Part shown: one piece after another, positions 19,660 through 33,851 of the stretch | Layout of the letters: the number at the start of each line of letters is the position of its first letter | How positions within the stretch are numbered: position 1 is the first letter of the stretch | Origin: Desulfobacteraceae bacterium | GTDB lineage: Bacteria; Desulfobacterota; Desulfobacteria; Desulfobacterales; ETH-SRB1 | Assembly: GCA_028571455.1 (NCBI GenBank) | Contig: JAPVVG010000168.1 | Location: 1 to 34,334 of the forward strand | Length of the DNA: 34,334 nt | Reading direction: 5' to 3' | The notes under the pieces: model-generated | Seen by the model: the letters and a program-made list of their open reading frames with translations, nothing else | The model's database searches: none | Told to the model about the DNA's origin: nothing | Position numbers and translations under genes: made by a program

Positions 19660-19693
19660 TACCGGTATAAATTGTTCCTGCTGCCTTTATATT

Positions 19694-19896
19694 TGATGAA
19701 CTCGTAAAAAGTCGGATTTCTACCGTTTTGTCATTCCCGACCTGATCGGGGCACGTAGTGACACGAAGTGACACGAAGTGAAGCGTCAGCGCTAACCGTC
19801 AGCGCTAACCATTAGCGCTATCCAGTTCTTTCAAGCACTTATGGACTCCCGCCTTCGCGGGAGTGACTCGATTTTTGACTTTTTACGAGACCATCA
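19694..19896. mobile_element. TIR element B1 (TIR type B, core type 2), 203 bp, flanked by TATT
   Basis: TGATGAACTCGTAAAAAGTC (19694-19713) / GACTTTTTACGAGACCATCA (19877-19896). Core 2 runs from TCATTCCCG (19731) to TCGCGGGAGTGAC (19865). TATT flanks both sides. Confidence 0.82.
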
Positions 19897-19909
19897 TATT
19901 TTAATAGTT

Positions 19910-26610: not shown

Positions 26611-26773
26611 TATACCTCGGAAGGTCACAAATTGTGCTTTTTTCGGTGAGCAATGAGCATCAAAAGCAAGGCGCGAAGGCGCGGAATAGCAGGCTATTGC
26701 AAGTCTGAGCAACGCTGCTATTGTGATGTTCATGGCCAGCGAAAAATCGTTATTTGTGGCCTTCCGAGGTATA
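26611..26773. mobile_element. TIR element E, 163 bp
   Basis: TATACCTCGGAAGGTCACAAAT (26611-26632) versus the reverse complement of ATTTGTGGCCTTCCGAGGTATA (26752-26773), one mismatch in 22. Internal AATAGCAGGCTATT hairpin. Confidence 0.78.
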
Positions 26774-26837: not shown

Positions 26838-27797
26838 GCAATAGAGAACCTGATCTTTTCTCTCATATCCGGAGGGGGATCCGCCCTTCTTCCCTACCCC
26901 GGGGGAAATATCACTCTTTCGGACGAGCAGGAAATTACCCGGCAACTGCTCGTGTGTGGCGCAAGTATTAATGAGATAAATGCTGTCAGAAAGCACATGA
27001 CTTCTTCTAAAGGAGGACAGATGGCAAGGGCCGCCTTTCCGGCCACGGTTATTAACTTGATGCTCTCGGACGTGGTGGGAGACAAAATGGACGTGATCGC
27101 CTCAGGACCTTTTGTGCCTGACACCTCTACGTTTAAAGATGTTTGGGGAATCTTCAAAAAATATGATTTGAAGAATATCCCCGCTGTCATTCAAAACATA
27201 TGAAGGCGGGCCTGGACGGACAAATTCCTGAAACACCCAAAGAAAATGACAGGATATTCGACCGCGTCTTCAATTTTATCGTGGGGAGCAATATTTTAGC
27301 CTTGGAAGCGGCAAGTGAAAAGGCCAAAACGCTTGGATATGAAACAGTTATTTTATCCTCTATGGTGGAAGGAGAAACAAAAGAAGTCGCGCGGGTTCAC
27401 ACCGCCATAGCCAAGGAAATTATTAAAACCGACCGGCCGATACCTGCGCCGGCATGTATTATTTCAGGAGGCGAAACCACTGTAACGATTCGAGGTGATG
27501 GTCTTGGAGGAAGGAATCAGGAGTTCTGTCTGGCTGCATGCCTGGACCTTGTGGAGCTTCCGCCTCGGGTTGTCATACTGAGCCGGCGGCACGGACGGAA
27601 ATGACGGTCCCACAGACGCAGCAGGCGCTTTGGTAGATCCGTTCACGGTAACACGAGGAAAAGATGCCGGGATGGAGGCGGACGAGTTTCTGAACAGAAA
27701 CGATGCGTATCACTTTTTTGAAAAAACAAAAGATCTTCTCATGACCGGTCCGACCCATACAAATGTAATGGATGTCAGGCTTGTATTGGTGGGCTAA
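26838..27797 (+). pseudogene. Glycerate 2-kinase (DUF4147/MOFRL type), 5'-truncated and frameshifted
   Basis: Fragments in three frames: AIENLIFSLISGGGSALLPYPGGNITLSDEQEITRQLLVCGASINEINAVRKHMTSSKGGQMA...; KAGLDGQIPETPKENDRIF...CIISGGETTVTIRGDGLGGRNQEF; GTDGNDGPTDAAGALVDPFTV...MTGPTHTNVMDVRLVLVG*. No N-terminal domain found upstream. Confidence 0.85.
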
Positions 27798-27798
27798 A

Positions 27799-27943
27799 TA
27801 GTGTCCATCCATAAATGAGGATTTTGGTTCAAGATCAAGGCATGTGAAAAAAATAACCACAGGCATATGTTTAATATTCCGAGGATTATTTTTTGAACAT
27901 AACGCAGAGATTGGGCAAAAAGACCATTTATGGATGGACACTA
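27799..27943. mobile_element. TIR element C (TIR type C, core type 1), 145 bp
   Basis: Perfect 19-bp TIRs TAGTGTCCATCCATAAATG (27799-27817) / CATTTATGGATGGACACTA (27925-27943). Core 1 at 27827-27915. Confidence 0.85.
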
Positions 27944-28161
27944 ACTAAGGCTTCGCCTCAATTGCAATAACAGGTTACCGTAAAATTCCTCTTGACAGGA
28001 ATTAACTATATGAATTACATACTTCCAATCTCGCTCAAAGCGGGGCCAGCATTCCAATATTCCATTCTTTCATTCGAAGAGTATAATTAGGTTGCGGATT
28101 GGGTGTTTATGATTTCTATAAGTGATTGAATTTCCTAAAGGTTAATTATTGGAGGTGTAAG

Positions 28162-28569
28162 ATGCATAGGATAAGGTGTTCAGCCAGGTATGTAAGTTTT
28201 TTTATGACATTGACTATGGTATTTATGACCATCCCTCTTCAAACGGTTTGTGCAGCAATGGTCGGCACCGAAACGGTGTTTACGATTACAGAGACAGAAA
28301 CTGCGCGTGAAAATCTTATCGGGTTTCTTGAACGTGAGGATATAGAAGCCGTAATGATAGCCCAGGGGATTAATTCGCTCGAAGCCAAAGCCCGTGTTAG
28401 CAGTCTTTCTGATGCCGAGGTCATGCGAATTGCAAAAAAGATGGATCAGCTTCCTGCCGGAGGCGATGGGTTCGGCTTCTTGATAGGCGCTGCTTTGATC
28501 GTCTTTTTGGTACTACTCTTTACAGATATTGCGGGTTATACCGACATCTTTCCGTTTGTTAAACACTAA
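28162..28569 (+). CDS. PA2779-family small membrane/exported protein
   Basis: MHRIRCSARYVSFFMTLTMVFMTIPLQTVCAAMVGTE...ARENLIGFLEREDIEAVMIAQGINSLEAKARVSSLSDAEVMRIAKKMDQLPAGG..., with GGAGGTG ribosome-binding site. Resembles PA2779-like proteins. Confidence 0.75.
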   Translation: MHRIRCSARYVSFFMTLTMVFMTIPLQTVCAAMVGTETVFTITETETARENLIGFLEREDIEAVMIAQGINSLEAKARVSSLSDAEVMRIAKKMDQLPAGGDGFGFLIGAALIVFLVLLFTDIAGYTDIFPFVKH

Positions 28570-28582
28570 AAGTAAAAATAAG

Positions 28583-29524
28583 GTGGCAATCCGCCGGTTA
28601 CACCTGCTATTGTGTGGCGGTCTGTTGCTGATATGCCTGACCGGATGTGCCGGTCTTAAAAAATGGGAAATGCTGCAAAAAGCGGGTGATTTGCCACCCC
28701 GCTTTGAGCTTAAGACGGTACCATTTTTTCCCCAAAAGGCACATCAGTGCGGTCCTGCGGCTCTTGCAATGGCACTCAACTGGAGCGGGTTGCCTGTTTC
28801 CCTTGAAGACCTTACAGACGAGGTCTTCACCCCCACACGAAAAGGAAGCCTTCAAACCGCACTCATAAGCGCCGCCCGCCGCCACGGTAGAATCGCTTAT
28901 ATATCCACCGGAATGGACGTGATCTTCTCGGAAGTGGCTGCCGGTCATCCGGTAATCATTTTGCAAAACCTCGGGCTTTCCTGGTATCCTGTCTGGCACT
29001 ATTCGGTTGTTGTGGGGTATAATATACCGAAAAAATTTGTTATTCTTCGCTCCGGTGCCACCGCCCGCAAGATTATGGCTTCCCGGGTTTTCGAAAAAAC
29101 CTGGGCTCGCAGCAATTACTGGGGGCTATTAATTCTACGACCTGAGCAACTTCCTTCCATGGCCAAGAAGGACCTATTTCTGGAAGCGGTGCTGGGACTT
29201 GAAAAGGCCCGCCGGTTCCGCGCCGCGATCCATGGGTATAAAACAGCACTGACACGCTGGCCTCAAAATCTGACTGTCCTTATGGGTATTGGCAACTGCC
29301 ATTATGCACTCGGAGAATTAAAAGATGCCGAGTCGGCCTTCAGAGAAACTGTGCGGTTACATCCCAAGGAAGGTTCCGTTTTAAACAACCTGGCACAAAT
29401 TCTTTTTGAGCAGGGGCAAAATCAGGAAGCGCTGGAAGTTGCCAAAAAGGCGGTTTCTCTTGGCGGTCCGTTAACCGCTGTTTATCAAAAGACCCTTGAA
29501 GAGATTCAAGCCGGAGCGCCGTGA
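28583..29524 (+). CDS. PA2778-family cysteine peptidase (C39-like) with TPR, lipoprotein
   Basis: GTG 28583 gives VAIRRLHLLLCGGLLLICLTGCAGL (lipobox), then VPFFPQKAHQCGPAALAMALNWSG (C39-like Cys motif), WYPVWHYSVVVGY (His motif) and C-terminal TPRs. Confidence 0.8.
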   Translation: MAIRRLHLLLCGGLLLICLTGCAGLKKWEMLQKAGDLPPRFELKTVPFFPQKAHQCGPAALAMALNWSGLPVSLEDLTDEVFTPTRKGSLQTALISAARRHGRIAYISTGMDVIFSEVAAGHPVIILQNLGLSWYPVWHYSVVVGYNIPKKFVILRSGATARKIMASRVFEKTWARSNYWGLLILRPEQLPSMAKKDLFLEAVLGLEKARRFRAAIHGYKTALTRWPQNLTVLMGIGNCHYALGELKDAESAFRETVRLHPKEGSVLNNLAQILFEQGQNQEALEVAKKAVSLGGPLTAVYQKTLEEIQAGAP

Positions 29525-29541
29525 AATATTGTTAACTAACC

Positions 29542-29683
29542 GAGACCTTTGAAAAATATTCAATTTTGTTCAAGGCCAAGGAAGGCGAAAATTTTAACCA
29601 CAGGAATACATTGAGTATTTCAAGGATTAAAATTTGAGCCTGACGCCGGAATTGGGCAAAAGGGGACGTTTTTCAAAGGTCTC
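29542..29683. mobile_element. TIR element A2 (TIR type A, core type 1), 142 bp
   Basis: GAGACCTTTG (29542-29551) / CAAAGGTCTC (29674-29683). The right arm GGGGACGTTTTTCAAAGGTCTC matches A1. Core 1 at 29568-29656. Confidence 0.85.
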
Positions 29684-29686
29684 TAA

Positions 29687-31063
29687 CTATAAACGATAAC
29701 CTTTCTCGTTAAACAATCTCAGGCAGGCATCGACCACTTTGGAATCATAAGAGGATCCGCGGTTCTTTGAAATTTCATTTAACGCAAGATCAATTCCAAG
29801 GGCTGCCCGGTAAGGCCGGTGAGAAGCCATAGCCTCAACCACATCAGCCACTGCCAGTATTCTTGCTTCGATCAAAATATTATCACCTGAAATACCATCT
29901 GGATATCCGGAACCATCCATCCTTTCGTGATGCTGTAGTACAATTTGTGCAATCGGCCATGGGAAATCCACCGTCTTCAATATATTATAACCCACCCGGG
30001 GATGTTCTTTAATTATCCCAAATTCGTTTGCACCTATTTTGCCCGGCTTACTGAGAATTTCTCCGGGTACCGATATTTTACCGACGTCATGGATCACTCC
30101 TGCCAGTCGGATTCCTTGAATCTGATCTTCTGAAACTCCCATTTCTGTGGCTATGGCACGAGCAAGATTGCTGACACGACGCTGGTGACCGGCGGTATAA
30201 GGATCTCTGGTTTCGACTGTCAATGCCATGGCTTCAATGGTTCCCCCTAATGCTTTTCTCAATTCCTTCAGGGTTTTTTCAAGTTGTTTACGGTTTGACA
30301 CCAGCTCACTGATATCTCGAATTATGCCCTGGTATCCTATTACACTTTTATCTCTTGCCAGCCGAACCGTGGACGTGATCAAACAATCTATTTCAGTACC
30401 GTCTTTCTTACGCAGCTTTACCTCAAACTCCCTGACAGATCCTTTTTGTGCTATCTCCTCCTGCCACCTTCCATATTCATCAGGGTTTACAAAAACGTCC
30501 TTTGTATTAATCCCTAACATCTCTTCTCTGGAATAACCGAAGAGATCCAACGTCGACCGGTTAAAATTAATCAACCCACCTTCTTTATCGTTAAGATAGA
30601 TCGCATCTTTGGAGTCTTCAAAGAGGGTACGATATTTCTCTTCGCTCTTCCTTAATTGGATTACGGTATTCCTGCGTTCCTGCCGATTTTTGGCCTCGCG
30701 TAATTCCCGATCGATAGCAGAGCTCAGTCGCGCAAGATTGCTTTTCATGATGTAATCGTGTACACCGGCCTTCATGGCCACAACGGCGGTTTCATCTGCA
30801 ATAGTGCCCGATACGATGATGAACGGCAGATCGAGCCTTTTATCCTTATAAAGCTCCAGGGCGGAAAATGCATTAAAACCGGGCATAGAATTATCGCACA
30901 GGATTACATCCCATGTCTGTTTATCCAGGGCTTTGCTCATAGCTTCAGCCGTATCCACCTGCTCGTAAGTGGGGCTATAGCCTCCTTTCTTCAACTTCCT
31001 CAGAAGCAGCAAGCCATCGTCTTCAGAATCATCAACAATCAATACACGGATTGGTTTATCCAT
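29687..31063 (-). CDS. Response regulator with receiver, PAS and HD-GYP domains (putative c-di-GMP phosphodiesterase)
   Basis: Receiver (RVLIVDDSEDDGLLLL, ILCDNSMPGFNA), PAS (EEKYRTLFEDSKDAIYLND) and HD-GYP (HDVGKISVPGEILSKPG, HHERMDGSGYPDGISG). Confidence 0.93.
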   Translation of the reverse strand: MDKPIRVLIVDDSEDDGLLLLRKLKKGGYSPTYEQVDTAEAMSKALDKQTWDVILCDNSMPGFNAFSALELYKDKRLDLPFIIVSGTIADETAVVAMKAGVHDYIMKSNLARLSSAIDRELREAKNRQERRNTVIQLRKSEEKYRTLFEDSKDAIYLNDKEGGLINFNRSTLDLFGYSREEMLGINTKDVFVNPDEYGRWQEEIAQKGSVREFEVKLRKKDGTEIDCLITSTVRLARDKSVIGYQGIIRDISELVSNRKQLEKTLKELRKALGGTIEAMALTVETRDPYTAGHQRRVSNLARAIATEMGVSEDQIQGIRLAGVIHDVGKISVPGEILSKPGKIGANEFGIIKEHPRVGYNILKTVDFPWPIAQIVLQHHERMDGSGYPDGISGDNILIEARILAVADVVEAMASHRPYRAALGIDLALNEISKNRGSSYDSKVVDACLRLFNEKGYRL

Positions 31064-33511: not shown

Positions 33512-33551
33512 AACTTTTTAAAAAATAGTTAGTTAATGAGAAGTTACCATT

Positions 33552-33704
33552 GATGAACTCGTAAAAAGTCAAAATTGAGACGGCAAAGTAAAAAGTTCAA
33601 GTTCAAGGCGTTGCGAATTTCCTGGAATGAGGCGTACTGATGTACGCCGCAGTGAACACGAAATGAAGTGCAAGGCAGAAATTGGACTTTTTACGAAGCC
33701 ATCA
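33552..33704. mobile_element. TIR element B2 (TIR type B, core type 1), 153 bp, flanked by CCAT
   Basis: TGATGAACTCGTAAAAAGTC (33552-33571) / GACTTTTTACGAAGCCATCA (33685-33704). CCAT at 33548-33551 and 33705-33708. Core 1 at 33595-33685. Confidence 0.85.
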
Positions 33705-33851
33705 CCATTGATTTATACATCAGATAGTCTGATCGAGCCGTAACTGCCTTCTGCCATCCTTCTTTGCACGCAATAATTAGGCCGAATCGGTTAATTAGAG
33801 AATAATGAGCTTAGGTACTTCGCCACTATTGGATTGGTGGAATAATAGTGT

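Follow-up and report, generated by a model that had tools for sequence, protein, structure and literature searches.

In a 34,334-nucleotide stretch of DNA from a Desulfobacteraceae bacterium (contig JAPVVG010000168.1; here called the window), we found that two related hairpin repeats, elements C and A2, are both copies of a short mobile element, about 142 bp long and dispersed, that has terminal inverted repeats (TIRs) and target-site duplications. The TIRs enclose a core whose pairing is retained over great divergence and which recurs within many classes of ends. An earlier note on this DNA had described the core as a drifting hairpin; it was silent on the elements being duplication-flanked miniature inverted-repeat transposable elements (MITEs) and on a single core being common to many TIR classes. 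We think it somewhat probable that these are transposase-mobilized MITEs whose module is under selection for folding of a single strand, a fold that probably serves the propagation of the element itself.

Elements in the window

Element C (27799..27943, plus strand) has ISNCY-type TIRs (TAGTGTCCATCC...GGATGGACACTA) and an imperfect target duplication (TAAATA at 27795-27800, TAACTA at 27942-27947). Its core-1 (27823..27920, plus strand; 98 nt) folds as the plus strand and scores 100.5 bits against a 98-nt covariance model that we made from C, A2, and close copies. Element A2 (29542..29683, plus strand; TIR GAGACCTTTGAAAAA) lies between TAACC (29537-29541) and TAACT (29684-29688), which match at 4 of 5 positions, and its core-1 (29564..29661, plus strand) scores 115.7 bits. 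Element B2 (33551..33704, plus strand; TIR TGATGAACTCGTAAAAAGTC / GACTTTTTACGAAGCCATCA) is flanked by a 4-bp duplication, CCAT (33547-33550 and 33705-33708), and direct reading places in it a divergent core (33595..33685, plus strand; TTCAAGTTCAAGGC ... GGCAGAAATTGG) with rewritten stems, an architecture that recurs at related loci (e.g., L218, L260, and L270). These elements are 142 to 154 bp long, with inverted arms of 26 to 32 nt. We also found a fourth element, absent from the earlier note (26611..26773, plus strand; TIR TATACCTCGGAAGGTCACAAAT), with a divergent core of its own (26654-26732, plus strand; GCAAGGCGCGAAG ... TGAGCAACGC); its match to the covariance model (20 bits, E 0.01) is weak alone and is backed by common loop letters.

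The core of C (27827-27915) and that of A2 (29568-29656) align without gaps with 65 identities in 89 positions, exactly as had been counted by hand, and the compensations read from them are present: three successive U-A to A-U swaps in one stem, AGGC/GCCT to ATGT/ACAT in another, and C-G to U-A at the closing pair of the apical stem. That stem in C also contains a C/T mismatch (columns 42/56), which had been overlooked. The bulged A (core column 63) is indeed kept between C and A2, and in the own-genome copies the position holds either A or C (21 of 21). The pair TTGC/GCAA attributed to B2 exists in the sequence, but B2 is a looser relative that the model based on C and A2 misses. In RNA folding, the hairpin spans the entire element, TIRs included, so that C and A2 each form one long interrupted hairpin; the whole elements (27799-27943 and 29542-29683) have folding energies of -57.7 kcal/mol for C (z = -8.9) and -62.2 kcal/mol for A2 (z = -10.8), with 200 shuffles as reference, compared with -47.4 and -44.7 kcal/mol for their opposite strands.

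Directly ahead of element C lies a glycerate kinase-like gene remnant (26952-27797; DUF4147 and MOFRL domains) that is split over several frames. The left end of B2 (33551-33704) consists of two tandem TIR-like copies and the right end of one, which pairs with the inner left copy; many B-type loci among L193-L319 share this arrangement of two copies on the left and one on the right. Short inserts (TAGCGCTGATGCTTCACTTCGTG..., ATCCGCCTGAGGCGGAT) occur in seven A-type copies (L019, L022, L029, L032, L033, L034, and L038) and seem to lie in or close to the hairpin's internal loops.

Evidence for transposition

The window's own assembly (2.9 Mb in 267 contigs) contains at least 44 matches to A2 and at least 16 to C, some of which are self-matches or fragments. 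In other genomes, dozens of A2-like matches in unrelated surroundings terminate no more than a few bases from 29542 and 29683, and an empty-site comparison found the flanks of A2 not to be syntenic in sister genomes. Target duplications are far more frequent than in shuffles: for class A, an exact 5-bp duplication was present at 47 of 71 copies (1.2 in shuffles), and 4-bp duplications were present at 9 of 13 class E copies (2.1 in shuffles) and 6 of 25 class C copies (0.55 in shuffles). Class D is likewise flanked by 4-bp repeats; the 4-bp repeats of class B (53 of 211) are indicative only, since alternative end choices and double readings are included. As far as sequence can tell, these TIRs, boundaries, and duplications are what a miniature element leaves when it moves by DDE-type transposition. 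An identity as integron attC sites is unlikely, because the copies are dispersed, single, and flanked by target duplications.

Complete insertion sequences with the same ends exist for two TIR classes. A related genome (G037, locus L175) carries a 1.7-kb insertion sequence with C-type ends whose transposase matches the NCBIfam ISNCY family (NF033593) at 443 bits, and a survey with NF033593 of 94 relatives revealed more complete ISNCY elements with C- or E-type ends. Their target duplications (TAATTA, TAGGTA, and TAGATA) are of the same kind as those of the MITEs, and their interiors are without the core. Given this agreement in both ends and duplication kind, a DDE transposase acting in trans very probably mobilizes the MITEs. 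The window's own assembly has no ISNCY (NF033593) match, so its copy of C is an orphan in its own genome. For A- or B-type ends, no insertion sequence was found, PF01609 loci included, and none of the loci examined had a gene placed between the two halves of the core, as an autonomous version would. In the own genome, B-type TIRs also enclose unrelated hairpins, and the core is thus not essential for moving B-type ends.

Plasmid records held no match to A2 and phage records none to C. Nine IMG/VR viral contigs (L313-L321) hold the loop pattern described below; they are mostly of one similar subtype with B-type right ends. In three genomes (G037, G046, and G074), many core copies are found about 25 bases or less from the end of a contig, and the repeat therefore appears to break assemblies.

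Distribution of the core and exchange of its ends

The covariance model matched 71 of the 94 relatives (53 of 75 genera) and, in a sample of the window's class, 200 of 292 genomes (87 of 125 genera). A loop pattern with free stems was found in at least 120 stretches of genome contigs, which together with the nine viral contigs yielded at least 119 distinct cores; fewer than one chance match was estimated for the whole collection. This pattern fixes the outer loop by design, whereas the covariance-model search does not, and the latter also recovered copies with the same loop and rewritten stems. Those distant cores that we inspected form a similar interrupted hairpin with different stems. Carriers among the matches listed are mostly named Desulfobacterales or Desulfobacteraceae, with Desulfobulbales, Syntrophobacterales, and Desulfuromonadaceae also represented; Desulfobulbus rhabdoformis DSM 8777 is one of the cultured carriers. 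Two Bacteroidota isolates, Fulvivirga imtechensis AK7 and Marinilabilia salmonicolor JCM 21150, have the loop pattern, as do a few further groups solely in metagenome bins, where misbinning is possible.

The ends of 228 cores fall into ten recognizable TIR classes plus many that are unclassified. A tree of 180 cores requires at least 42 changes of TIR class, against 9 as the least possible. These are minimum changes on an uncertain tree, since its resolution is poor (it is built on 88 columns, and 105 of the 175 inner branches are weak). Even when the well-supported branches are taken by themselves, several changes are needed, in classes B, C, and F, and in the own genome a C-like core lies within D-type ends (L003). 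From these comparisons, one core has evidently been exchanged repeatedly among at least ten TIR classes.

Covariation and the folded strand

We aligned 109 highly diverged copies from 58 genomes. In this alignment, which was fitted to the structure and leans pair counts toward it, pairing is present in 96.4% of 3811 cells, and two-sided changes in 30 of the 35 pairs; two-sided cells number 530, versus 109 when shuffled and at most 104 with partners slid. Because shuffles ignore relatedness, we ran a tree-based test modeled on R-scape (our own script; G-statistic with average-product correction). For the null, 100 replicate alignments were simulated along a FastTree tree, the observed changes being assigned to columns at random. 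Eleven column pairs, and no others, reached E < 0.05: nine pairs of the structure plus 12:87 and 19:79, both of which adjoin helices. The remaining 26 structure pairs were not significant individually. Covariation was the check that the earlier note had named for its view that structure is maintained while sequence drifts, and with relatedness taken into account the view holds.

The pair 19:79 is non-canonical, being C.A in 60 copies, A.G in 47, and otherwise in 2, such that the two states covary in 107 of the 109 copies; its 5′ side switches state at least 5 times on the core tree. Internal loops (CAAGG / ACGC-G and neighbors) are conserved while the stems around them are rewritten. A kink-turn reading of the G.A pairs was tried by hand and rejected, as the C-stem does not pair.

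Mispairs in the stems are strongly asymmetric. With the three consensus wobble pairs excluded, G.T and A.C occur in a ratio of 101:22. A second set, chosen without regard to pairing, consisted of 46 A-type copies that were recognized from their ends and given an orientation from two loop motifs. In it the ratio was 52:10, and each of the five fixed wobble pairs is G.T. That G.T so far exceeds A.C argues that one defined strand folds.

Proposed mechanism and alternative explanations

We propose that the elements are non-autonomous miniature transposons that would be mobilized by a DDE transposase in trans. Within the TIRs, one strand of the core folds into a long interrupted hairpin whose stems drift compensatorily and whose internal loops are conserved. 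The core may be kept since this strand must fold, as single-stranded DNA (ssDNA) or as a short RNA, during the element's own propagation, and presumably not for regulating neighboring genes. The fold may be needed for a host factor to recognize the element, for the palindrome to survive replication, or for new ends to be copied symmetrically from arm to arm. A bolder proposal, which we offer tentatively, is that the core is a structure-selected single-strand module (RNA or ssDNA) that is recognized through its internal loops and passes from one unrelated transposon family to another by swapping terminal repeats, a single folded core thereby exploiting many different transposases across bacterial phyla.

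It is rather unlikely, in our estimation, that MITEs here spread a structured non-coding RNA, namely the core, which acts in trans or within transcripts. The tolerance of G.T and avoidance of A.C, the conserved internal loops with their non-canonical A.G/C.A covariation, and the better folding of the plus strand in 83% of 119 diverse cores (RNA energies) would all suit such a module. The plus-strand preference holds with DNA energies too, however (92% of the same cores), the cores match no Rfam family, and a tandem-gene test showed no sense bias to flanking genes (43 co-oriented versus 54 anti-oriented; p = 0.31). An excess of antisense downstream neighbors within 150 bp (74 versus 38) rests on crude gene calls and is not relied on. 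A replication-strand bias suggested by one genome (G085; 19 versus 35, p = 0.04) was rejected when four genomes, some with poor skew arcs, were pooled (93 versus 109, p = 0.29). Copies without consistent orientation to genes or replication argue against an ordinary mRNA role; we do not favor regulation within neighboring mRNAs, and a folding requirement internal to the element seems more likely. The earlier expectation, that the hairpin is either a functional RNA or a substrate in the form of ssDNA, is thus half borne out: the G.T excess and the non-canonical covariation point to selection for folding of one strand, which may be either RNA or DNA, while sense bias, consistent replication bias, and an Rfam match were all lacking; a preferred orientation relative to genes, which had been named as a further check, was not found.

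We consider it improbable that these are ordinary MITEs whose core and structure reflect common ancestry alone, without present function. Long stem-loop folds are frequent in bacterial MITEs according to the accounts in PMC2229807 and PMC10969869. Unconstrained pairing should nevertheless have been lost, yet 96.4% of cells still pair, and it is the loops that are kept while stems are rewritten.

Still less credible is a purely mutational origin, in which template switching or conversion within the palindrome keeps the arms complementary, making paired changes neutral and automatic with no selection on the fold. Quasi-palindrome correction is a known mutational process, and the arms of both TIRs and core do remain complementary despite total stem rewriting. 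Arm-to-arm copying in double-stranded DNA would, however, treat the strands alike and give no G.T/A.C asymmetry, contrary to the 101:22 and 52:10 ratios, and it should make mismatches vanish, yet loop motifs are conserved across genera and the C.A/A.G mismatch covaries.

REP-like or IS200/IS605-type elements with single-strand mobility through a Y1 (RAYT) transposase are very improbable, despite hairpins with conserved bulges and 13 Y1_Tnp matches in the window's genome (G000), as TIRs and target duplications, both of which our elements have, are not known to be Y1 products, and genomes lacking any core match (G082 and G025) hold 22 to 24 Y1 matches. A Y1 link was also rejected in the core-rich genome G066, which has 132 core matches and no Y1 match.

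Relation to known elements and significance

The elements resemble RUP, Correia/NEMIS, and QMITE in being shorter than 200 bp and intergenic, with TIRs, target duplications, and a stem-loop, and in lacking a transposase, as those families are described in PMC2229807 and PMC10969869. RUP shares its TIR with IS630-Spn1, much as classes C and E here share theirs with ISNCY. What sets our elements apart from these families is a single core found in many TIR classes, throughout a whole order and in other phyla, together with covariation that takes the tree into account, a non-canonical pair that covaries, and an asymmetry favoring one strand. The ISNCY-family (NF033593) insertion sequences themselves resemble MITE classes C and E in their TIRs (GTGTCCRTCC / GTGCCYGAACGAAAA) and TANNTA-like duplications, and differ in having a transposase and no core.

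Like our elements, ERIC/IRU of enterobacteria (127 bp) is an imperfect palindrome over its whole length and is dispersed between genes. PMC2229807 describes the effects of ERIC on mRNA as orientation dependent, whereas we found no orientation bias; this comparison is by description, and our named carriers are not enterobacteria. TIMEs are Tn3-derived miniature inverted-repeat elements that generate mosaic non-autonomous transposons (PMC4133298) and, as characterized there, derive from a single transposon family, unlike the core described here. Compared likewise by description, the multicopy palindromic families of Geobacter genomes, also former Deltaproteobacteria, are dispersed, intergenic, and of unexplained function; the accessible text of the two reports on them (PMC2700814 and PMC2996986) describes no shared-core or covariation analysis. 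A literature search with the element sequences gave no relevant paper among the matches listed, and the accessible open-licence literature contained no earlier description of a core common to several TIR classes, a prior description elsewhere being possible.

The usual view of bacterial MITEs is of degenerate insertion sequences whose interiors carry no meaning. In these elements, the interior is conserved and the ends are exchanged, and the evidence is strong that folding of one strand is required. Should the fold serve propagation, a so far unrecognized step or host factor would be implied in how miniature elements move. In addition, the covariance model can be used to annotate a very common, assembly-breaking repeat of Desulfobacterales.

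Finally, B-type ends (TGATGAACTCGTAAAAAGTC) in the own genome surround very different inner hairpins (window positions 19686-19904; loci L040-L062). These include GTCATTCC-type and GGCGGAT-type palindromes and thus form palindromes within palindromes. The 13 Y1_Tnp (RAYT-like) matches of the window's genome may be tied to those of the GTCATTCC type.
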